Assembly (NCBI RefSeq): GCF_008014745.1
Contig: NZ_VPFD01000011.1
Span: 62,359 to 126,358 of the forward strand
Source: Massilia arenae
Lineage (GTDB): Bacteria > Pseudomonadota > Gammaproteobacteria > Burkholderiales > Burkholderiaceae_D
Length of the DNA stretch: 64,000 bases
Direction of reading: 5' to 3'
The notes beneath the pieces were generated by a model. The model searched no databases. It was not told the DNA's origin and saw only the letters and a program-made list of their open reading frames with translations. Positions 13,485-35,922 of the stretch are shown here, in pieces. Both the position numbers and the translations under genes were made by a program. Numbering within the stretch: the first letter of the stretch is position 1; the number at the start of each line of letters is the position of its first letter.

Positions 13485-14363
13485 TTACGCGCGCAGACGC
13501 GCGAGCACACCCTCGAGGATGTCCAGGTCGGCAAAGTCGATGATCATCTGGCCCTTGCCCTTCGTGCCCATCTTGAACAGCACCGGCGTCGCCAGCTTGT
13601 CGGACAGTTCTTCTTCCAGCCTGACGATGTCGCCCGGTTTGTCCTTGGCGCGCGCCGACTGGGCCGGAGCGGCCTGCTCTTCGAGCGCGCGTGCGACCAG
13701 CTTCTCGGTCTCGCGCACCGACAGGCGACGGGCGACGACATGGTTGGCCAGCGCGATCTGGTTCGCACTGTCGACCGCCAGCAAGGCGCGGGCGTGGCCC
13801 ATGTCGATATCCCCTGCCATCAGCATGGTCTGCACCGGCTGCGCGAGGTTAATCAGGCGCAGCAGGTTCGACACAGCGCTGCGCGAGCGGCCGACCGCGC
13901 CGGCCGCCTGCTCGTGCGTGAAATTGAAATCCGAGATCAGGCGCTGGATGCCCTGCGCTTCCTCCAGCGGATTCAGGTCTTCGCGCTGCATGTTCTCGAT
14001 CAAGGCCATGGCGGCCGCGGCCTGGTCGTCGACGTCGCGCACCAGCACCGGGATTTCTTCCAGTCCCGCCATCTGCGCCGCGCGGAAGCGCCGCTCGCCG
14101 GCGATGATTTCGTACGGCGTGCCCGATCCCGCCGGCAGCGGGCGCACCAGCACCGGCTGCATGATGCCCTGGGTCTTGATCGAGGCGGCCAGCTCGGACA
14201 GGCTCACTTCGTCCATGCGGGTACGCGGTTGATACTTGCCGGCCTGGATCTGGGTGACGGCCAGGACCGAAGGCAGATTGCTTGCGGCGGGTGCGGCGTC
14301 CATGTCGCCGCCGAGCAGGGCGTCGAGCCCGCGGCCAAGTCCCTTGAGTTTTTTGGTTGCCAT
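13485..14363 (-). CDS. parB: Chromosome partitioning protein ParB (CTPase, parS-binding)
   Basis: The 292-residue protein opens with KLKGLGRGLDALLGG, the ParA-interacting N-terminus. The CTP-binding domain follows with GERRFRAAQMAGLEEIPV, then the HTH region (FTHEQAAGAVGRSRSAVSNLLRLINL) that reads parS, and a C-terminal dimerisation domain ending IIDFADLDILEGVLARL. Four parS sites are visible in this window (three at 17945-18053, one at 27347-27362). It is 22 bp downstream of parA and acts with it to segregate the origin region. Confidence 0.97.
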   Translation of the reverse strand: MATKKLKGLGRGLDALLGGDMDAAPAASNLPSVLAVTQIQAGKYQPRTRMDEVSLSELAASIKTQGIMQPVLVRPLPAGSGTPYEIIAGERRFRAAQMAGLEEIPVLVRDVDDQAAAAMALIENMQREDLNPLEEAQGIQRLISDFNFTHEQAAGAVGRSRSAVSNLLRLINLAQPVQTMLMAGDIDMGHARALLAVDSANQIALANHVVARRLSVRETEKLVARALEEQAAPAQSARAKDKPGDIVRLEEELSDKLATPVLFKMGTKGKGQMIIDFADLDILEGVLARLRA

Positions 14364-14385: not shown

Positions 14386-15156
14386 TTACATGGTCTTGAT
14401 GCGCTGGACCATTTCCGCGCCGAAGGCGATGTACGCCTGCGCGCCTTTCGAAGAAGGATCGAAGGTCACGCCCGGGATGCCGTAGGACGGCGCTTCGGCC
14501 AGGCGGACGTTGCGCGGGATGATGGTCTTGAACACCTTGTCGCCGAAGTGCTGCTCGAGCTGGTTCGAGACCTGCTGCGACAAGGTCATGCGCGGGTCGA
14601 ACATCACGCGCAACAGGCCGATGATCTTGAGGTCGGTGTTCAGGTTGGCGTGTACCTTCTTGATCGTGTTGACCAGGTCGGACAAACCTTCCAGCGCGTA
14701 GTACTCGCACTGCATCGGGATGATCACGCCATGCGCGGCGCACAGGCCGTTGAGCGTGAGCAGCGACAGCGCGGGCGGGCAGTCGACCAGGATGAAGTCG
14801 TAGTCGGCATCGACCGCGGCCAATGCATCCTTCAGGCGGCGCTCGCGGTTCTCGAGCGACACCATCTCGACTTCGGCGCCGGCCAGCTCGCGGTTGGCGG
14901 GCAGCACGTCGAAGCGCCCCGCCTCGGAGCGCACGCGCGCACCGGCCACGTCCGACTCGCCCAGCAGCACCTGGTAGATCGACGACTCGAGCTCGGCCTT
15001 GTTGATGCCGGCGCCCATGGTCGCATTGCCCTGCGGGTCGAGGTCGACCAGCAGCACGCGCTGGTCCAGTTTAGCCAGGCCCGCCGCCAGGTTGACGGAG
15101 GTGGTGGTCTTGCCTACCCCACCCTTCTGGTTCGCTACGCAAAATATCTTCGCCAT
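14386..15156 (-). CDS. parA: Chromosome partitioning ATPase ParA/Soj
   Basis: The 256-residue protein has the deviant Walker A motif KGGVGKTTTSVNLA, then LLVDLDPQGNATMG (A') and DFILVDCPPALSLLTLNGL (Walker B). All three are typical of chromosomal Soj/ParA without the extra N-terminal HTH of plasmid ParAs. It provides the ATP-driven gradient that moves ParB-parS complexes. The 122-bp gap to rsmG contains a dense set of repeats that may be its promoter and operator. Confidence 0.97.
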   Translation of the reverse strand: MAKIFCVANQKGGVGKTTTSVNLAAGLAKLDQRVLLVDLDPQGNATMGAGINKAELESSIYQVLLGESDVAGARVRSEAGRFDVLPANRELAGAEVEMVSLENRERRLKDALAAVDADYDFILVDCPPALSLLTLNGLCAAHGVIIPMQCEYYALEGLSDLVNTIKKVHANLNTDLKIIGLLRVMFDPRMTLSQQVSNQLEQHFGDKVFKTIIPRNVRLAEAPSYGIPGVTFDPSSKGAQAYIAFGAEMVQRIKTM

Positions 15157-15278: not shown

Positions 15279-15929
15279 TTAGCTGGTTCTCTGGATGAAG
15301 ACTAGGTGCCGCTCTGCACCCAGTCTTGGCACCTGCAATGGCTGCAAACCGCTTACTTTCCACTCTTGCGGCAGCCGTTCTCGTTCCTCGCTTGGCGCCA
15401 CCCCTTTCAGGGCGATGAATTTACCGCCCTCTTGCAGCAGGTGTCCCGACCAGTTGACGAAATCGGACAGGTCGGCGAAAGCGCGTGAGGTGATGACGTC
15501 GAATTTGTCGCTCACCGCCAGGTCTTGCACCTTCATCGTGTACACGGTGACGTTCGTGAGTCCCAGTTCTGCCTTTACTTGTGTGAGGAAGGCGGTTTTC
15601 TTGTGCACGGTGTCGATCATCGCCACTTTCATGTCGGGCCGGGTGATCGCCAGCACGGTGCCTGGCAATCCGCCCCCTGCTCCCACGTCCAGCACATTGC
15701 GGGCATCGATGAACGCCGGCACCGCAGCCAGTGAGTCGAGCAGGTGATGGGTCACCATCTGCATCGGGTCGCGCAGCGAAGTCAGGTTGTACACCGCATT
15801 CCACTTGTGCATCAGCTGCAGGTAGGCCATCAGCTTGCCCTGCTGTTCCGGACTTACATCCAGGCCCATTTCGGCGATACCATCGGCCAGCACCTTGGCC
15901 AGCGCATCGCGGTCGAACGCATATTTCAT
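15279..15929 (-). CDS. rsmG: 16S rRNA m7G527 methyltransferase
   Basis: The 216-residue Rossmann methyltransferase has the SAM-binding loop [12 protein letters not shown], then [12 protein letters not shown] and [15 protein letters not shown], all diagnostic of GidB/RsmG. The N-terminal helices include [15 protein letters not shown]. It methylates N7 of G527 in 16S rRNA with SAM. Its ATG overlaps the mnmG stop by 4 bp (15926-15929), so the pair is translationally coupled. Confidence 0.97.
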
Positions 15930-17857
15930 TGCGCCGCCTCCGACGTAGTCGGGGCAAAGCCCGGGACGCCACGTTTCTTCAGATGTACCAGCAACAAGGA
16001 GATCGCCGCCGGGGTCACGCCCGAAATGCGCGAAGCCTGGCCCAGGGTTTCGGGACGCTGCTTGTCCAGCTTCTGGCGCACCTCGAACGACAGGGCTGCG
16101 ATCTCGAGATAATTCAGATTTTCTGGCAGCTTCAGGTTTTCATAGTGGTCGTGACGCTCGACTTCGCGCGCCTGGCGATCGATATAGCCGGAATACTTGA
16201 GCTGGATTTCCACCTGCTCCTTCACGGCCGGATCTTCGACGCCGGGGCCGGCCAGCAACTGGCCTTCAATACCTTGCATCGTCATCAGGGTGTCGTACTC
16301 GACGCCCGGTCTTCTCAGCAGGTCGGCCAGGTTGTACTCGCGTTCGAGCGCCTGCCCCACCACGCGTTCCGATTCGGCGGCAGCCAGAATGCGTGGGTTG
16401 ACCCAGGTCGCTTTCAGTCGTTCCAGTTCGCGGGCGACGGATTCGCGCTTGGTCTCGAAGGCCTGCCAGCGCGCGTCATCGACGATGCCCAGCTGGCGGC
16501 CGATCTCCGTCAGGCGCATGTCGGCGTTATCTTCGCGCAGCGACAGGCGGTACTCGGCGCGGCTTGTGAACATGCGGTATGGCTCGGCCACGCCTTGCGT
16601 GGTGAGGTCGTCGACCAGCACGCCGAGGTAGGCTTCGGAGCGGCCCGGGGTCCAGGTGTCCTTGCCCTGGGTTTGCAGCGCGGCGTTCAACCCGGCCAGC
16701 AGACCCTGGGCTGCGGCCTCTTCGTAGCCGGTGGTGCCGTTTATCTGGCCCGCGAAGAACAGACCCTTGATCGACTTGGTCTCGAGCGAGGCCTTCAGGC
16801 CGCGCGGGTCGAAGTAATCGTATTCGATCGCGTAGCCGGGACGCAGGATGAAGGCGTTTTCCATGCCGCGCATCGAGCGCACCAGCTCCAGCTGGACGTC
16901 GAACGGCAGGCTGGTCGATATCCCGTTCGGATAAAACTCGTTGGTGGTCAGGCCTTCCGGCTCGAGGAAGATCTGGTGCGATTCCTTCGAGGCGAAGCGG
17001 TGGATCTTGTCTTCGATCGACGGGCAGTAGCGCGGGCCGACGCCTTCGATCACGCCGGTGTACATCGGGCTGCGATCCAGGCCGGCGCGGATGATGTCGT
17101 GGGTGCGCTCATTGGTATGCGTCACCCAGCACGGCACCTGGCGCGGATGCATCGCCACATTACCCATATACGAGAAGACCGGCACGGGATCGAGGTCACC
17201 CGGCTGTTCGGCCAGCACCGAGAAGTCGATGCTGCGGCCATCGATGCGCGGCGGCGTACCCGTCTTGAGGCGGCCCTGCGGCAGCTTGAGTTCCTTCAGG
17301 CGCGCCGACAGCGAGGTCGCCGGCGGATCGCCCGCGCGGCCGCCCGAATAGTTCTGCAAGCCGACGTGGATCTTCCCGTCCAGGAAAGTACCGGCGGTGA
17401 GCACCACGGCGCGGGCACGGAACTTCAGGCCGACCTGGGTGACGGCGCCAACCACGCGGTCGCCCTCCACCATCAAGTCATCGACCGCCTGCTGGAACAG
17501 CCACAGGTTCGGCTGGTTTTCCAGGCGCGAGCGGATCGCCGCCTTGTACAGGACGCGGTCGGCCTGGGCTCGGGTGGCGCGCACGGCCGGGCCCTTGGAC
17601 GAATTCAGGATGCGGAACTGGATGCCAGCCTCGTCGGTGGCGATGGCCATGGCGCCACCGAGGGCGTCGACTTCCTTGACCAAGTGACCCTTGCCGATGC
17701 CGCCAATCGACGGATTGCAAGACATGGCGCCGAGGGTTTCGATATTGTGGGTCAGCAGTAGGGTCTTCTGACCGGTGCGTGCGGACGCGAGTGCGGCTTC
17801 GGTTCCGGCATGGCCGCCGCCGACGACGATGACGTCGAATTCAGTAGGAAATAGCAT
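15926..17857 (-). CDS. mnmG: tRNA 5-carboxymethylaminomethyluridine-34 synthase subunit MnmG (GidA)
   Basis: The 643-residue FAD protein starts with [22 protein letters not shown] (FAD dinucleotide fold). It contains the paired-cysteine region with [17 protein letters not shown] and the conserved RYCPSIEDK and [15 protein letters not shown] motifs. The C-terminal helical domain binds MnmE and tRNA. With MnmE (not in window) it modifies U34 of several tRNAs. Three parS sites lie immediately upstream. In many bacteria mnmG-rsmG-parAB lies close to the replication origin. Confidence 0.98.
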
Positions 17858-17944: not shown

Positions 17945-17960
17945 TGTTTCACGTGAAACC
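17945..17960. other. parS: parS site 1 (ParB-binding centromere)
   Basis: TGTTTCACGTGAAACC matches the 16-bp consensus TGTTTCACGTGAAACA at 15 positions, differing only at the last base. It lies 88 bp upstream of the mnmG start codon. Confidence 0.93.
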
Positions 17961-17983
17961 TTAATCTTCTGTTCTTATTGGCG

Positions 17984-17999
17984 TGTTTCACGTGGAACA
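17984..17999. other. parS: parS site 2
   Basis: TGTTTCACGTGGAACA matches the parS consensus at 15 of 16 positions, with A to G at position 12. It is 39 bp after site 1, start to start. Confidence 0.9.
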
Positions 18000-18037
18000 A
18001 TGGGCAATAAAAAAGCCGGGTTGCGGACACGGCTCTA

Positions 18038-18053
18038 TGTTTCACGTGGAACA
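18038..18053. other. parS: parS site 3
   Basis: TGTTTCACGTGGAACA is identical to site 2 and ends 4 bp before the stop codon of the TauE-like gene. The three sites together fill the ~200-bp gap upstream of mnmG. Confidence 0.9.
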
Positions 18054-19824: not shown

Positions 19825-20034
19825 TGTGGATAAGCTACTTGATATCCACAGGTATCGTTTGTGCAGAACTCGGCTTTTTTGCACAAGCAAAAATCTTGTC
19901 CAGATTTGCCACCAAGCAGTCTGCTTAGCAGTGCACCGACTTATCCGTCACATAAACGCCTGATTTCGTGTCCTTTAATCGGGTTGTCCACAGAAACCAG
20001 CTACCGTTAACCACTACTATCAATGTTGTATACA
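19825..20034. repeat. Origin-like module A
   Basis: The module is 210 bp. Elements by offset from the first base are TGTGGATAA (0), ATATCCACA (17), TGTGCAGAA (35), TTGTCCACA (159), TACTATCA (about 191) and TTGTATACA (201). Confidence 0.8.
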
Positions 20035-20196
20035 GATCTTGGTTGTAAACCTGGCGAGCTCGCGAAAAAAAAAATTTTCTTCCACGTGTGGCAAATCGGA
20101 GAAGGCAAATCGCAAGCCGATGTTGTCAGCCATCTCGACCGCTTGCTCGCACATCGTGTTCACCAAGGCTTGCCAGGCTGGGAAAGGAACGGCGTC

Positions 20197-20403
20197 TGTG
20201 GATAAGCGCATGAATATTCACAGGACGGAATGTGCAGAAACCACCGACTTGTCCAGTTGAGAAATTTCTATTCAACTTTCCTACAGCGCCGGAACAGGCG
20301 TTTTCCAGCGGGTTAACGCGACCGTAAACCATTGATGTTGTGGAGAAAACCGTCTTTATCCACAAAGAAGCCCGCGTTTACTATTACTATCATTTTGTAT
20401 ACA
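20197..20403. repeat. Origin-like module B
   Basis: The module is 207 bp with the same order as module A: TGTGGATAA (0), ATATTCACA (17), TGTGCAGAA (34), TTATCCACA (159), TACTATCA and TTGTATACA (198). It shares with module C an extra CGTAAACC-TTGAT-TGTGGAG block before the second DnaA box. Confidence 0.8.
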
Positions 20404-20578
20404 AGCCTTTAACTAAAACAAATACGAGAAATGCCGCTGCCGCTGACTCCGGACCAGCCCGAGGTTGAAAACGACGAAGGCGTGCAGAAAAGATCAGTCA
20501 CACGCACGAGTCCCTGGTCAGGGCGATCGCGCTAGACCTCTCGAACTGCAGGTCTGGTAGCAATGACACGCAAGCGCC

Positions 20579-20786
20579 TGTGGAAAAGCCACTGCATATC
20601 CACAGCACCGGATGTGCAGAACAGGCCCTTTTTCTGTGAGCCAATTTGTTGTCCAAGAACCGTGCAAGCCGAACGCAAGCTTTTTCCCGCGCGTAAACGA
20701 CGTCGTAAACCGTTGATACTGTGGAGTAAACTCGCCTTATCCACAGAGATCATCGCGTTTACCTACTACTATCAACCTTGTATACA
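20579..20786. repeat. Origin-like module C
   Basis: The module is 208 bp: TGTGGAAAA (0), ATATCCACA (17), TGTGCAGAA (34), TTATCCACA (158), TACTATCAA and TTGTATACA (199). It is followed directly by an AT-rich tract and, at 20927-20935, by an isolated TTATGCACA box. Confidence 0.8.
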
Positions 20787-20998
20787 TATCTCTTAATTAA
20801 ATAAGCAAACACAGCGCAAGCAAAAAAAAGCGTCTTCCAGAACAGGCCATTCACTTCCTGCAACCAGAACCAGAATCGTTGCAATTCAAGGACTGAATGC
20901 GATGGAAGCTGTGTACAATCCGTCCCTTATGCACAGTTGCCGATCTGAATTGCCAACAAGGTGCAAATCGTCTCTACACACTTACCCAGCAAGAAAAC

Positions 20999-21793
20999 AT
21001 GCGTCTAGGGATCATCAGCGCTTTGCACGAAGAACAGGCAGGGCTCGTGGAAGCCATGGGAGGGGCCGCCAAGCTCATCCATGGCAAACGGGAGTACTGG
21101 GTCGGAAAGCTGTGGGAAATCGACGCTGTGTGCGTTTTATCGCGTATTGGCAAGGTTGCCGCTGCGATGACTGCGACAACGCTTGTGGAAAAGTTCGGAG
21201 TTACGCACATCCTCTTCACGGGCGTTGCCGGCGCCGGGGATAAAACGATCCGTGTGGGCGACATCGTGGTGGCCGAATCGCTGGTCCAGCACGATATGGA
21301 TGCCAGCCCTTTGTTCCCGCGTTTCGAAGTGCCGCTCACGGGCCAGACGCATTTCCAGCCAGACCAGCAGCTGTCGCTACGCTTGTCCAGTGCCGCCCAC
21401 GCCTTCCTGGAATGCGACTTCCTGGAGACGATCTCCGAGACCGAGAGACAGGCGTTTGGCCTCGCACAGCCGCGCGTACATCGTGGCCTGATCGCCAGCG
21501 GCGACCAGTTCGTCAACGACCGCCAGCGCATCGATGCGCTCAATGGCGCCCTGCCCGGGCTGGTGGCGGTGGAGATGGAAGGCGCCGCGGTGGCGCAGGT
21601 GTGTCAGGAACTGGACGTGCCGTTTGCCGTCATCCGCGCGGTATCGGACAATGCCAATGAAGACGCGGCCCACGACTTCATGCGCTTCGTGAAGTCGGTG
21701 GCTGCGCAATATGCTTTCCATATCACCCGGCGCCTGTGCCGGCAGCTGGTGGAAGCGCCGCTTCAGCCCAGGAGCGAATCGGCGGGGATGTAG
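20999..21793 (+). CDS. mtnN: 5'-methylthioadenosine/S-adenosylhomocysteine nucleosidase-like protein
   Basis: From ATG 20999 the product has 264 residues. [16 protein letters not shown] matches the start of the PNP/UDP fold of MTA/SAH nucleosidases. [21 protein letters not shown], the [14 protein letters not shown] loop (catalytic Glu and Met) and [12 protein letters not shown] (catalytic Asp) follow. The enzyme hydrolyses MTA and SAH to adenine and the ribosyl thiol. It is ~30 residues longer than E. coli Pfs, with an insertion around [10 protein letters not shown]. An upstream extension of the frame runs through a DnaA box and is rejected. Its 3' end overlaps the convergent ald gene by 31 bp. 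Confidence 0.85.
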
Positions 21794-27317: not shown

Positions 27318-27350
27318 AAAACGGCCAGGCATTTGCCTGGCCGTTTTGTT
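27318..27350 (+). terminator. Intrinsic terminator of the lrp-type gene, overlapping parS
   Basis: AAAACGGCCAGGC-ATTT-GCCTGGCCGTTTT forms a 13-bp perfect stem (27318-27330 with 27335-27347) with the T-run continuing into TGTTT. The last stem base is the first base of the parS site. Confidence 0.93.
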
Positions 27351-27362
27351 TCACGTGAAACA
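27347..27362. other. parS: parS site 4 (perfect consensus)
   Basis: TGTTTCACGTGAAACA is a perfect 16-bp palindrome identical to the canonical parS. It sits between the convergent lrp-type and LysR genes. It lies 6.5 kb to the right of the DnaA-box region, while the other three lie about 2 kb to its left. Confidence 0.95.
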
Positions 27363-31958: not shown

Positions 31959-33335
31959 ATGAACGTTGTGATCCTCGCCGCCGGCATGGGAAAGCGCATG
32001 CAATCCGCCCTGCCGAAAGTCCTGCATCCATTGGCTGGTAAGCCGCTGTTGCGCCACGTTATCGATACGGCACGTAGCCTGAGTCCGCAGAAATTATGTG
32101 TGATTTACGGGCACGGCGGCGCAGCGGTGCCCGAGATGGTGTCCGCGCTAGCGCAAGAGACCGGCATTACGATCGATACCGCCCTGCAGCAGCCGCAGCT
32201 GGGCACTGGCCATGCAGTGATGCAGGCGGTGCCGCAACTGGACGATGGCAGCGCCACCCTGGTGCTGTATGGCGACGTGCCGCTGACCACGGTGGACTCG
32301 CTGCGCCGCCTGGTCGAGGCCGCAGGAAGCGACAAGCTGGGCATCCTGACGGTCGAACAGGCCAACCCTTTCGGCCTGGGCCGCATCGTGCGCGAGAACG
32401 GCAAGATCGTGCGCATCGTCGAAGAAAAAGATGCCAGCGAGGCCGAGCGCGCCATCCGCGAAATCAATAGCGGCATCATGGCGATCCCCACCCGCCATCT
32501 CAAGAAGTGGCTGGCGGCGCTGTCCAACAACAATGCCCAGGGCGAGTACTACCTCACCGATATCGTGGCCCAGGCCGTGGCAGATGGTGTGCCGGTCGTG
32601 TCGGCGCACCCGTCGGGCGAATGGGAAGTGGCTGGCGTGAACAGCAAGGTGCAGTTGGCCGAGCTGGAGCGTCGTCATCAATTGAACATCGCCCATGCCC
32701 TGCTGGAAAAAGGCGTGACCTTGATGGATCCGGCACGTATCGATGTGCGCGGTGAACTGATTTGCGGCCGCGATGTCACTATCGACGTCGGCTGCGTGTT
32801 CGAAGGCCGTGTCGAGCTGGCTGACGGCGTAAAGGTCGGCGCCAACTGCGTGCTGGTCGGCGCCACGGTCGGCGCTGGCGCCAACATCAAGCCGTTCTGC
32901 CATATCGAAGGCGCCGTCATTGGCGCCGCCTCGCAGATCGGACCGTATGCGCGCCTGCGTCCGGGCACCGAGCTGGGCGAGGACGTCCATGTGGGTAACT
33001 TCGTCGAGGTCAAGAACAGCACCGTGGCGGCGCACAGCAAGGCCAACCACCTGGCCTATATCGGCGATGCCACCGTCGGCTCGCGCGTGAACATCGGCGC
33101 CGGCGTCATCACCTGCAACTACGACGGCGCCAACAAGTTCCGTACCGTGATCGAGGACGAGGTGTTCGTGGGCAGCGACAGCCAGCTGGTGGCGCCGGTG
33201 ACGATCGGCAAGGGCGCGACCCTGGGCGCCGGGACCACGCTCACCAAGGATGCGCCGGCCGGCAAGCTGACCATTTCGCGGCCCAAGCAAATCACCATCG
33301 AAGGATGGAAGCGTCCGGTGAAAGTGAAGAAGTAA
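31959..33335 (+). CDS. glmU: Bifunctional N-acetylglucosamine-1-phosphate uridylyltransferase / glucosamine-1-phosphate acetyltransferase
   Basis: The 458-residue protein has the uridylyltransferase loop [27 protein letters not shown] at the N-terminus. [14 protein letters not shown] and VLYGDVPLT follow. The C-terminal half is a left-handed beta helix of hexapeptide repeats with the acetyltransferase residues in [25 protein letters not shown]. It acetylates GlcN-1-P and then forms UDP-GlcNAc for peptidoglycan and LPS. It works one step after GlmS, encoded 0.8 kb downstream with an AsnC gene between them. Confidence 0.97.
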
Positions 33336-33459
33336 TCCACCGGCTGTCGACAGGGTAATCACAGGAAATAAACAAGATAAACACAGGGTTTTACCGTGCT
33401 TACCCCCTGTCCATCCACCTGGTCTTCCACAATATTATCCACAGGCTGCGGCCTGTGAT

Positions 33460-33930
33460 CTAGACGGCGATCCGGGTGTCGAACTTGCTGCGGTGGGTCG
33501 AAAAATAGGCTTTGACGTTGCGCACATTGGCGTGCGAGGTGAACAACCGGTGCGCTAGCGCATGATAGGCCGGCATGTCGGCAACCTGCACGACCAGCAC
33601 GAAATCGGGTCCTGGCGATACCCGGTAGCACTGCAGCACGGCCGCTTCCCTGGCGGCCAGCTTCTCGAACTCTTCCATGCGCTCGGCGGCCTGCACGTCG
33701 AGCGTGATCTCGACGATGGCGGACAGGCAGCTGCCGACCTTGTCGGGCGCCACGATCGCCACCTGACGCTCGATGACGCCACTTTCCGTCAGCTGCTTTA
33801 CGCGGCGCAGACAAGTCGGTGGCGACACGTGCACAAGGGCCGCCAGTTCGGCGTTCGTATGCGATGCGTCAGTTTGCAAAATATTCAGAATGCGACGATC
33901 GAGGTCGTCGAGGGCAGGTAGTTCTGTCAT
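33460..33930 (-). CDS. Lrp/AsnC-family transcriptional regulator
   Basis: The 156-residue protein has the AsnC HTH (LDDLDRRILNILQTDASHTNAELAALVHVSPPTCLRRVKQLTESGVIERQ) and a RAM domain with SPGPDFVLVVQVADMPAY. It is inserted between glmU and glmS on the opposite strand. It is convergent with glmU and divergent from glmS with a 162-bp AT-rich gap. Its ligand is unknown. The divergent layout makes autoregulation and an effect on glmS possible. Confidence 0.9.
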   Translation of the reverse strand: MTELPALDDLDRRILNILQTDASHTNAELAALVHVSPPTCLRRVKQLTESGVIERQVAIVAPDKVGSCLSAIVEITLDVQAAERMEEFEKLAAREAAVLQCYRVSPGPDFVLVVQVADMPAYHALAHRLFTSHANVRNVKAYFSTHRSKFDTRIAV

Positions 33931-34092
33931 CTTGATGAAATATTCAGTAAATTTTATGATTTTTATGAAACAAGATTTCTTGCTTATGCAGGCATGAAAT
34001 AATCTAACAAAAATAGCCTCGCACTGTAAGCTTATTTCATTCGGATTGCTCTACGATAAGACTCAACAGTTTTTCTATTCGAGAGGTTAGCC

Positions 34093-35922
34093 ATGTGCGG
34101 TATCGTCGGAGCAGTCGCCAAGCGTAATATCACCCCCGTCCTGATCGAGGGCCTGAAACGCCTCGAATACCGGGGTTACGACTCCTGTGGCGTCGCCATC
34201 CACCTCGATGGCCGCCTGACCCGCTCGCGCTCCACCTCGCGCGTGGCCGACCTCGAATCGCAGGTCAAAGAGGCCAGCCTCGATGGCTTCACCGGCATCG
34301 CCCACACGCGCTGGGCCACCCACGGCGCCCCGGCGTCGCACAATGCCCACCCGCACTTCTCGCCGACCGAAGACAATGCGCGCATCGCACTTGTCCACAA
34401 CGGCATTATCGAAAACCACGACGAGCTGCGCGACGAACTCACCAAGCTGGGCTACAAGTTCACGAGCCAGACCGACACCGAGGTCATCGCCCACCTGGTC
34501 GACCACCTGTACACCGGCGACCTGTTCGAGACCGTGCAGCAAGCCGTCAAGCGCCTGCAGGGCGCCTACGCCATCGCCGTGTTCTGCCGCGAAGAACCGC
34601 ACCGCGTGATCGCCGCGCGCCAGGGCTCGCCGCTGATCGTCGGCGTGGGCAAGGACGAGAACTTCGTCGCTTCCGACGCGATGGCGCTGGCCGGCACCAC
34701 CGACCAGATCATCTATCTGGAAGAAGGCGACGTGGTCGACCTGCAACTGGCCCGCTACTGGATCGTCGACGTCGATGGCCGCCCGGTCGAGCGCGAAGTG
34801 AAAACCGTGCACGCCCACACCGGCGCGGCCGAGCTCGGCCCATACCGCCACTATATGCAGAAAGAGATCTTCGAGCAGCCGCGCGTCATCGGCGACACCC
34901 TCGAAGGCGTGACCGGCGTGATGCCGGAACTGTTCGGCGACGGCGCCTACGCCGTGTTCAAGAAGATCGACCGCGTGCTGATCCTGGCCTGCGGTACCAG
35001 CTACTACGCCGGTCTGACCGCCAAGTACTGGATCGAATCGGTGGCCAAGGTGCCGGTCAACGTCGAAATCGCCAGTGAATACCGCTACCGCGACAGCGTG
35101 CCGCACCCCGACACCCTGGTGGTGACCATCTCGCAGAGCGGCGAAACGGCCGACACCCTGGCCGCACTCAAGCACGCACGCAGCCTCGGCATGAACCACA
35201 CGCTGACCATCTGCAACGTCTCGACCAGCGCCATGGTGCGCGAGTGCCAGCTGGCCTACATCACCCGCGCCGGCGTTGAAGTCGGCGTGGCCTCGACCAA
35301 GGCCTTCACTACCCAACTGGCGGCCCTGTTCCTGTTGACCCTGACCCTGGCGCAAGTCAACGGCCGTCTGACCGACGCCGAGGAAGCCGAGCACCTCAAG
35401 ATGATGCGCCACCTGCCGGTCGCCCTGTCGTCGGTGCTGGCGCTCGAGCCGCAGATCATCGCCTGGGCCGAGGAATTCGCGCGCAAGGAGAACGCCCTGT
35501 TCCTGGGCCGCGGCATCCACTACCCGATCGCCCTGGAAGGCGCGCTGAAGCTCAAGGAAATCTCGTACATCCACGCCGAGGCCTACCCGGCCGGCGAACT
35601 GAAGCACGGCCCGCTGGCGCTGGTGACCGAAGAGATGCCGGTGGTAACGATCGCGCCGAACGATGCACTGCTGGAAAAACTGAAATCGAATATGCAGGAA
35701 GTGCGCGCGCGTGGCGGCCAGCTGTACGTGTTCGCCGACGTCGATTCGCGCATCACCTCGGGCGATGGGCTGCACGTGATCCGCCTGCCGGAACACTATG
35801 GCCTGCTGTCGCCGATCCTGCACGTGGCGGCGCTGCAGCTGCTGGCGTATCACACGGCGCTGGCGCGCGGTACCGATGTGGATAAGCCGCGTAATCTGGC
35901 GAAGTCGGTGACGGTCGAGTAA
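34093..35922 (+). CDS. glmS: Glutamine-fructose-6-phosphate aminotransferase (isomerizing)
   Basis: The 609-residue protein starts [12 protein letters not shown], so the catalytic Cys is the residue after Met. The class II glutamine amidotransferase domain (to about 240; [30 protein letters not shown]) is followed by two SIS sugar-isomerase domains. These include [28 protein letters not shown] and [25 protein letters not shown]. It makes glucosamine-6-phosphate, the first committed step to UDP-GlcNAc. No glmS ribozyme signature was recognised in its 162-bp leader. An intrinsic terminator follows. Confidence 0.98.

Follow-up and report, generated by a model that had tools for sequence, protein, structure and literature searches.

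The 64,000 nt stretch of Massilia arenae DNA that we analyzed (the window) carries, beside mnmG-parAB, a locus that is very probably the replication origin, oriC. We further think it probable, with appreciably less confidence, that this oriC is built of three complete units facing the same way, each of them competent, which would provide redundant or alternative start sites. These conclusions rest on the sequence and geometry of the units, on their conservation, on their genomic position in relatives, and on their likeness to origins that lie next to dnaA in other families.

The units (modules A, B, and C; Table 1) are each ~215 bp long, and their starts are 372 and 382 bp apart, as an earlier note on this DNA had stated. 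Every element quoted in that note was found in its place: TGTGCAGAA is at offset 35, 34, and 34 in A, B, and C, the second-cluster box at 159, 159, and 158, and TTGTATACA at 201, 198, and 199, and TACTATCA is located at 20015, 20385, and 20767. Within the window, TACTATCA and TGTGCAGAA are confined to the modules. The five exact matches to TTATNCACA that had been listed were also recovered, four as TTATCCACA (at 19825, 20197, 20356, and 20737) and one as TTATGCACA (at 20927), but the last of these falls outside the modules. The boxes are oriented - (box1), + (box2), - (box3), - (box4), and + (box5). Box4, the fifth box, is present in modules B (20339) and C (20720) of the window and is missing from module A; this box, the IHF-consensus sites at 19953, 20325, and 20706, and a set of parS-like sites were absent from the earlier note. 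The clustering of DnaA boxes exceeds chance, because 1,145 bp contain 4 exact boxes, compared with 0.009 expected, and 9 boxes with no more than one mismatch, compared with 0.208 expected (1,000 first-order Markov sequences, with maxima of 1 and 3, respectively). Sequence and profile searches found no further module elsewhere in the M. arenae genome.

Table 1. Features of the origin locus and its neighborhood (positions in the window)
Feature	Position	Strand	Remarks
parB	13485-14363	-	TIGR00180 over its cut-off
parA	14386-15156	-	ParA-type models matched, below their cut-offs
mnmG (gidA)	15926..17857	-	TIGR00136 1.6e-272; neighbor of E. coli oriC too
Three parS-like sites	17945, 17984, 18038 (span 17945..18053)	.	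clustered between mnmG and module A
Module A	19825..20040	+	nhmmer 3e-44; positional clade A 100/99; mnmG-proximal unit, unwinding end rightward
A box1 TTATCCACA	19825..19833	-	R4-like, far end; identical in 34/34 A modules
A box2 ATATCCACA	19842..19850	+	
A box3 TTCTGCACA	19860..19868	-	weak DnaA box
A IHF-consensus site	19953..19965	-	0 mismatches; 18 bp from box5
A box5 TTGTCCACA	19984..19992	+	R1-like, DUE-proximal
A DnaA-trios TAG TAG	20014..20019	-	21 bp from box5
A TTGTATACA, where the AT-rich unwinding element starts	20026..20034	.	least stable 50 bp = 99.2 percentile of window
Module B	20197..20409	+	nhmmer 1e-50
B box1 TTATCCACA	20197..20205	-	
B box2 ATATTCACA	20214..20222	+	
B box3	20231..20239	-	
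B IHF-consensus site	20325..20337	-	1 mismatch; 18 bp from box5
B box4 TTCTCCACA	20339..20347	-	
B box5 TTATCCACA	20356..20364	+	R1-like
B four DnaA-trios TAG TAA TAG TAA	20378..20389	-	13 bp from box5
B TTGTATACA / AT-rich unwinding element	20395..20403	.	99.96 percentile of instability in window
Module C	20579..20791	+	nhmmer 9e-51
C box1 TTTTCCACA	20579..20587	-	
C box2 ATATCCACA	20596..20604	+	
C box3	20613..20621	-	
C IHF-consensus site	20706..20718	-	0 mismatches; 18 bp from box5
C box4 TACTCCACA	20720..20728	-	
C box5 TTATCCACA	20737..20745	+	R1-like
C three DnaA-trios TAG TAG TAG	20763..20771	-	17 bp from box5
C TTGTATACA / AT-rich unwinding element	20778..20786	.	99.9 percentile of instability in window
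MTA/SAH nucleosidase gene	20999..21793	+	right-hand neighbor; NF004079 9.6e-84
Fourth parS-like site	27347-27362	.	7 kb beyond modules

When the interval was used as a DNA query, 37 of 61 genomes gave a match, comprising all 37 of the same genus (M. arenae included) and 0/24 from other families. Modules in these 37 stretches were counted with an iterated profile made from the three modules of the window. Three tandem modules were present in 34 stretches and two in the remaining 3, and in 34/34 triplets all of the modules face the same direction. Matched lengths are 199–219, and in the three-module loci neighboring modules start anywhere from 305 to 1690 bp apart. In 2 of the 3 two-module loci the copies are oppositely oriented, 255 bp start to start. 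The close relatives L035 (4804-5272) and L048 (4993-5461) have only two modules, which are divergent and separated by 43 bp, perhaps through loss of one unit and inversion. In L066 (4303-5448), an ORF that by eye resembles TnpB/OrfB lies between A and B, so that their spacing is 1,690 bp and no unit has been lost; the presence of this insertion-sequence-like ORF indicates that the units tolerate separation.

The spacing between modules is thus variable, whereas their internal geometry is rigid. We aligned 108 modules, of which 102 could be assigned by position (34 each of A, B, and C, labeled by the orientation of the right-hand gene because mnmG sometimes lies beyond the stretch) and 6 were others. 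Box2 is at offset 17 and the best box3 match at offset 34 or 35 in 108/108 modules, and the distance from box1 to box5 is 157–160 in every one. Conservation of the offsets in relatives, which the earlier note had proposed to check, is seen in 37/37 genomes of the genus, and the note's proposal that selection holds the offsets is upheld. We built a tree from 96 modules of 32 genomes, excluding five loci whose rows were long or had two modules. The A copies form one clade with support of 100/99, and A is still a single clade when all rows are included (92/71). The tree requires 4 changes of position label, compared with 46.0 when labels are shuffled. Monophyly of B (p-AU 0.242) and of C (p-AU 0.247) is not rejected. 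Because the copies keep their identity by position, we conclude that the triplication is old.

Read from its right end, a module presents an AT-rich stretch, then DnaA-trios, and then box5. The AT-rich element beside the boxes is easily melted, ranking between the 99.2 and 99.96 percentiles of instability in the window. The earlier note had considered TACTATCA foreign to the DnaA vocabulary, but judged by its sequence it is a DnaA-trio element, giving TAG/TAA repeats on the other strand in agreement with the consensus TA(A/G) (PMC5742627). At least two consecutive trios occur in 34/34 A, 34/34 B, and 34/34 C modules, compared with 20% of random tails, and the spacer between box5 and the first trio is 13 bp in 31/34 B and 30/34 C modules. 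A strict BUS pattern, which we simplified from PMC8287927 to a DnaA box plus three or more trios within 16 bp, was seen in one A module, 18 B modules, and four C modules out of 34 each (23/102), in 0/6 of the others, and in the window in module B only. The count was again 23/102 when the earliest run of trios was used instead of the longest.

A scan of the modules matched the IHF consensus perfectly 21 times, always on the same strand and in a single 10 bp bin. The best site lies at a distance of exactly 18 bp from box5 in 107/108 modules (34, 33, and 34 of 34 for A, B, and C), with no more than one mismatch in 69/108 and no more than two in 107/108. As the site was picked out after the alignment had been viewed, and as a match with two or fewer mismatches (0.6% at a random place) is the best of a random 60 bp middle in 28% of cases, the weight of this observation rests on the fixed position. 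The genome contains genes for IHF alpha and beta, both over their cut-offs. We also considered TTGTATACA as the IHF site and rejected it; the site is the CGTAAAC...TTGAT element. The earlier suggestion that TTGTATACA may be bound by a second factor is not supported: no more than one mismatch is seen in 31/34 A, 19/34 B, and 23/34 C modules, and the motif drifts to TTATATACA or TTTTATATA, the behavior expected of an AT-rich melting element. A protein factor may bind TTGTATACA at module A.

With its trios, its AT-rich end, and an IHF site at a fixed gap, each module looks like a complete, compact origin. The main rival to our reading accepts that the locus is oriC but supposes that DNA opening is confined to one module, probably B or C, and that the other two are relics or sites for DnaA titration and timing, whose boxes would have been retained for the sake of titration. 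Module A gives this proposal its substance, since box4 is missing from 23/34 A modules, TTGTCCACA occupies the R1 place in 13/34, the trios are 18–21 bp away from box5, and the AT-rich end is less AT-rich than in B and C; moreover, three genomes manage with two modules. Titration, however, needs neither trios, nor an IHF site at a constant distance of 18 bp, nor an AT-rich end, all of which are kept by the three module classes, and exactly three modules are kept in 34/37 genomes. We regard the single-opening proposal as rather unlikely, although it is the alternative to be taken most seriously. As the parts specific to unwinding are retained in all three modules, we infer that each unit can be opened.

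If the three units are all competent, DnaA would bind in each a rigid array whose R1-like box5 lies beside the AT-rich element. In B and C, the inverted partner box4, 17 bp from box5, would join this array, and the far cluster of box3, box2, and box1 would complete it, ending in an R4-like inverted box. A bend made by IHF 18 bp from box5 would bring this array up against the AT-rich end, where DnaA would take the strand with the TAG/TAA repeats and open the duplex for helicase loading. This scheme is modeled on the ssDUE-recruitment model of E. coli and the DnaA-trio model. Firing of one unit would leave the others to be copied passively. The binding of DnaA and IHF, the unwinding, and initiation from more than one unit are all predictions from the DNA sequence.

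The assembly that contains the window consists of 80 contigs, and GC skew and dif were placed in relatives. Inside the window the skew changes sign near 33–34 kb and shows no clear-cut minimum where the modules lie. The change, from plus to minus, occupies ~33000-34500, and exact DnaA boxes are found at 33435 and 35877. For G107, which belongs to another genus of the same family, skew was computed from 40 samples of 20 kb each. Its cumulative GC skew has a minimum at 356 kb and a maximum at 3,555 kb; the corresponding positions are 363-364 kb for the modules, 3,529 kb for dif, and 0.4 kb for dnaA. KOPS-like octamers in G107 are biased 47:4 from the modules up to dif and 3:18 beyond dif as far as the end, and are neutral (12:10) from dnaA to the modules. 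In G026, of the same genus as M. arenae, the skew is weak, with a minimum at 387 kb and a maximum at 3,036 kb, compared with positions of 287 kb for the modules, 2,996 kb for dif, and 0.4 kb for dnaA. Between dnaA and the modules of G026, the KOPS-like counts of 4:10 fit an origin at the modules, whereas the slightly positive mean skew (+0.005) does not. Of the two relatives in which we ran the skew check recommended in the earlier note, G107 placed the minimum at the modules rather than at dnaA. Because the skew of G026 was too weak to decide, we relied on dif and on G107 as a second genome.

A dif-like site was identified in 33/39 single-contig genomes, and a control pattern in 0. The terminus lies opposite the modules: they are closer than dnaA to the dif antipode in all 15 in-family genomes that we tabulated (the lengths of G312 and G327 being rounded), with a median asymmetry of 0.9% for the modules and 3.7% for dnaA. 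All 10 genomes in which the modules are >100 kb from dnaA favor the modules by this measure, and in 13/15 the modules are nearer to the antipode than 5% of random positions. G312 is asymmetric for both candidates (modules 19%, dnaA 32%). Outside the 15-genome table, G168, which has one weak module 15 kb from dnaA, favors dnaA (1.0% vs 1.5% for the modules), and G040, from another family, favors the modules (0.1% vs 11.5% for dnaA).

The absence of dnaA from the window, to which the earlier note had drawn attention, is real, as dnaA is on another contig, but it is not peculiar to this genome: dnaA is 7–790 kb from the modules in the 15 tabulated relatives. The 15 kb around the M. arenae dnaA contain no module, one exact box, and one box with one mismatch. 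Six 273-aa and seven 265-aa ORFs in G026 and G327 gave partial matches of equal score to a DnaA-type AAA model; they are perhaps IstB-like transposon helper ATPases.

The modules sit between an alpha/beta-hydrolase-like gene and the MTA/SAH nucleosidase gene, 2 kb from mnmG-rsmG-parA-parB. We scanned for parS-like sites with a 16-mer consensus, allowing up to 2 mismatches. The sites that were detected (Table 1), together with parAB beside the modules, complete the picture and support the origin reading.

A model made from the sequences of 46 modules of this genus matched 102/300 genomes of the order Burkholderiales, 93 of them in other families and mostly weakly; the other 198/300 gave no match. 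The position of dnaA was checked in 80 of the 93 genomes. In 41/80 the match follows the DnaA domain match at a distance of 521–793 bp from its end, and it is on the same strand as dnaA in 41/41. In the remaining 39, the match is on the same contig as dnaA but elsewhere (23), is on a different contig (15), or occurs in a genome without a DnaA match at threshold (1, G527). (The module match and dnaA of G543 are on different contigs.) Loci that we fetched by choice, for best score and nearness to contig starts, were excluded from these counts; in eight of them the aligned module starts <200 bp from the end of the dnaA match. The module is best read as the origin unit of the order, which in those families is next to dnaA and in M. 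arenae next to mnmG-parAB. This likeness to dnaA-adjacent origins agrees with the skew of G107 and the dif symmetry, and the candidate origin proposed in the earlier note is borne out.

An origin at dnaA, with the modules forming a DnaA-regulating cluster similar to datA or DARS, is in our estimation highly improbable. The resemblance is not empty, because datA and DARS2 also hold a DnaA-box cluster with an IHF site (PMC5742627), and DARS uses a head-to-head pair of boxes (PMC10380432); box1-box2 and box4-box5 are inverted pairs here. Against it stand the skew minimum of G107, the dif antipode, the sparse boxes around the M. arenae dnaA, the similar module just downstream of dnaA in other families, and the AT-rich, trio-bearing ends of the modules.

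Within the family, which is probably Oxalobacteraceae, the model matched 271/294 genomes and 41/44 genera. Counts of modules taken from the match columns were rejected, as reverse-strand and partial matches inflated them; counted instead by coordinates in 36 single-contig in-family genomes, there were three modules in 9, two in 25, one in 1, and none in 1. When named genomes were scanned for the exact pattern (72 stretches), it was found in Massilia and Telluria and also in Undibacterium and others. In g26, g52, g54, and g57 the copies within a genome are each other's nearest kin, which points to repeated duplication or homogenization, and the two copies of G217 (g46) are near-identical; in g50 and g64 the copies group by position, as in the genus of the window. 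Two modules in inverted orientation were seen in L202 (G217), where they are near-identical, and in L203 (G227), where they flank the MTA/SAH nucleosidase gene; these loci have likely undergone recent homogenization of origin units. As L066 and L203 illustrate, genes can sit between module copies. G370, G501, G560, and G466, from other Burkholderiales families, have two weak tandem matches 245–306 bp apart, and multiplicity may have arisen outside this family as well. Near-identical pairs such as that of G217 demonstrate that duplication or conversion does occur, but the idea that the repeats are neutral duplications without a function of their own has very little to recommend it, given that the copies in the genus have diverged, keep their identity by position, and have a frozen geometry.

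Bacterial chromosomes are usually assumed to have one unwinding site per origin, and here three apparently complete ones have been kept. We propose, as a possibility that falls somewhat short of an even chance, that these are natural multi-unit origins, in which two or three complete and competent oriC units have been kept for the age of the genus, with A specialized relative to B and C, and in which the choice or order of unwinding sites sets the timing of initiation. The triplet bears on whether control of re-initiation acts at the level of the unit or of the origin, and on the reason that the number stays at three. The 108 aligned modules expose fixed and free positions and amount to a natural experiment on the minimal origin. 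The origin lies with mnmG-parAB while dnaA is elsewhere, and a similar unit is beside dnaA in other families. Among the matches listed in our literature searches on repeated origin units, several trios, and origins of Massilia, Oxalobacteraceae, and Burkholderiales, the titles and opening lines of abstracts did not describe tandem complete units.

The bipartite origins of Helicobacter pylori and Bacillus subtilis likewise have more than one DnaA-box cluster, and dnaA splits the clusters in both. A split by dnaA is also reported for Acidaminococcus (PMC4403523). At the locus described here dnaA does not separate the clusters, and, in contrast to the bipartite origins, each cluster has its own AT-rich end. 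Chromosome 1 of Cupriavidus metallidurans CH34 has a GC-skew transition ~90 kb from dnaA, beside a 213-nt region with three perfect boxes, for which the excerpt of the paper describes no repeated units (PMC2864759). Predicted double origins include that of Ralstonia pickettii 12D, with two sites ~292 kb apart (PMC4403523), and for chromosome 1 of Burkholderia cenocepacia the exact origin was reported as unclear (PMC4948915).

The modules share with the BUS of B. subtilis the succession of DnaA box, spacer, and TAG/TAA trios, and a spacer of 13 bp is the commonest between box and trios (PMC8287927). They differ from it in the longer spacer of A and of module C of the window and in having an IHF site; the published survey, moreover, screens down to one BUS per origin (PMC8287927). 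The eTrio of Thermotoga maritima oriC consists of three tandem TAG repeats, as in module C of the window, but belongs to a single unwinding region (PMC10316083).

E. coli oriC has the same neighbor, mnmG, and the same order of AT-rich element, R1-type box, and IHF-type site. The E. coli locus (L235) contains two IHF candidates with 2 mismatches beside R1, at 315 and 329. The one at 329, which we take to be the known IHF site, is 18 bp from R1 in the same orientation, the gap found here in 107/108 modules. The sequence of the E. coli IHF site does not appear in the text of PMC10380432. The R1-IHF spacing is strictly required in E. coli, and the left half of its oriC suffices for unwinding (PMC5742627). 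An inverted, exact far box lies 180 bp from R1 in E. coli, compared with 157–160 here. The boxes of the E. coli left half all have one orientation and those of the modules do not; E. coli has two head-to-tail halves, and the modules have mixed box orientation and clear trios. The earlier note had called this origin unlike that of E. coli. With three units here and one in E. coli, that judgment stands for the triplicated arrangement, but it does not extend to the individual module, in which the R1-IHF gap equals that of the site taken in E. coli.
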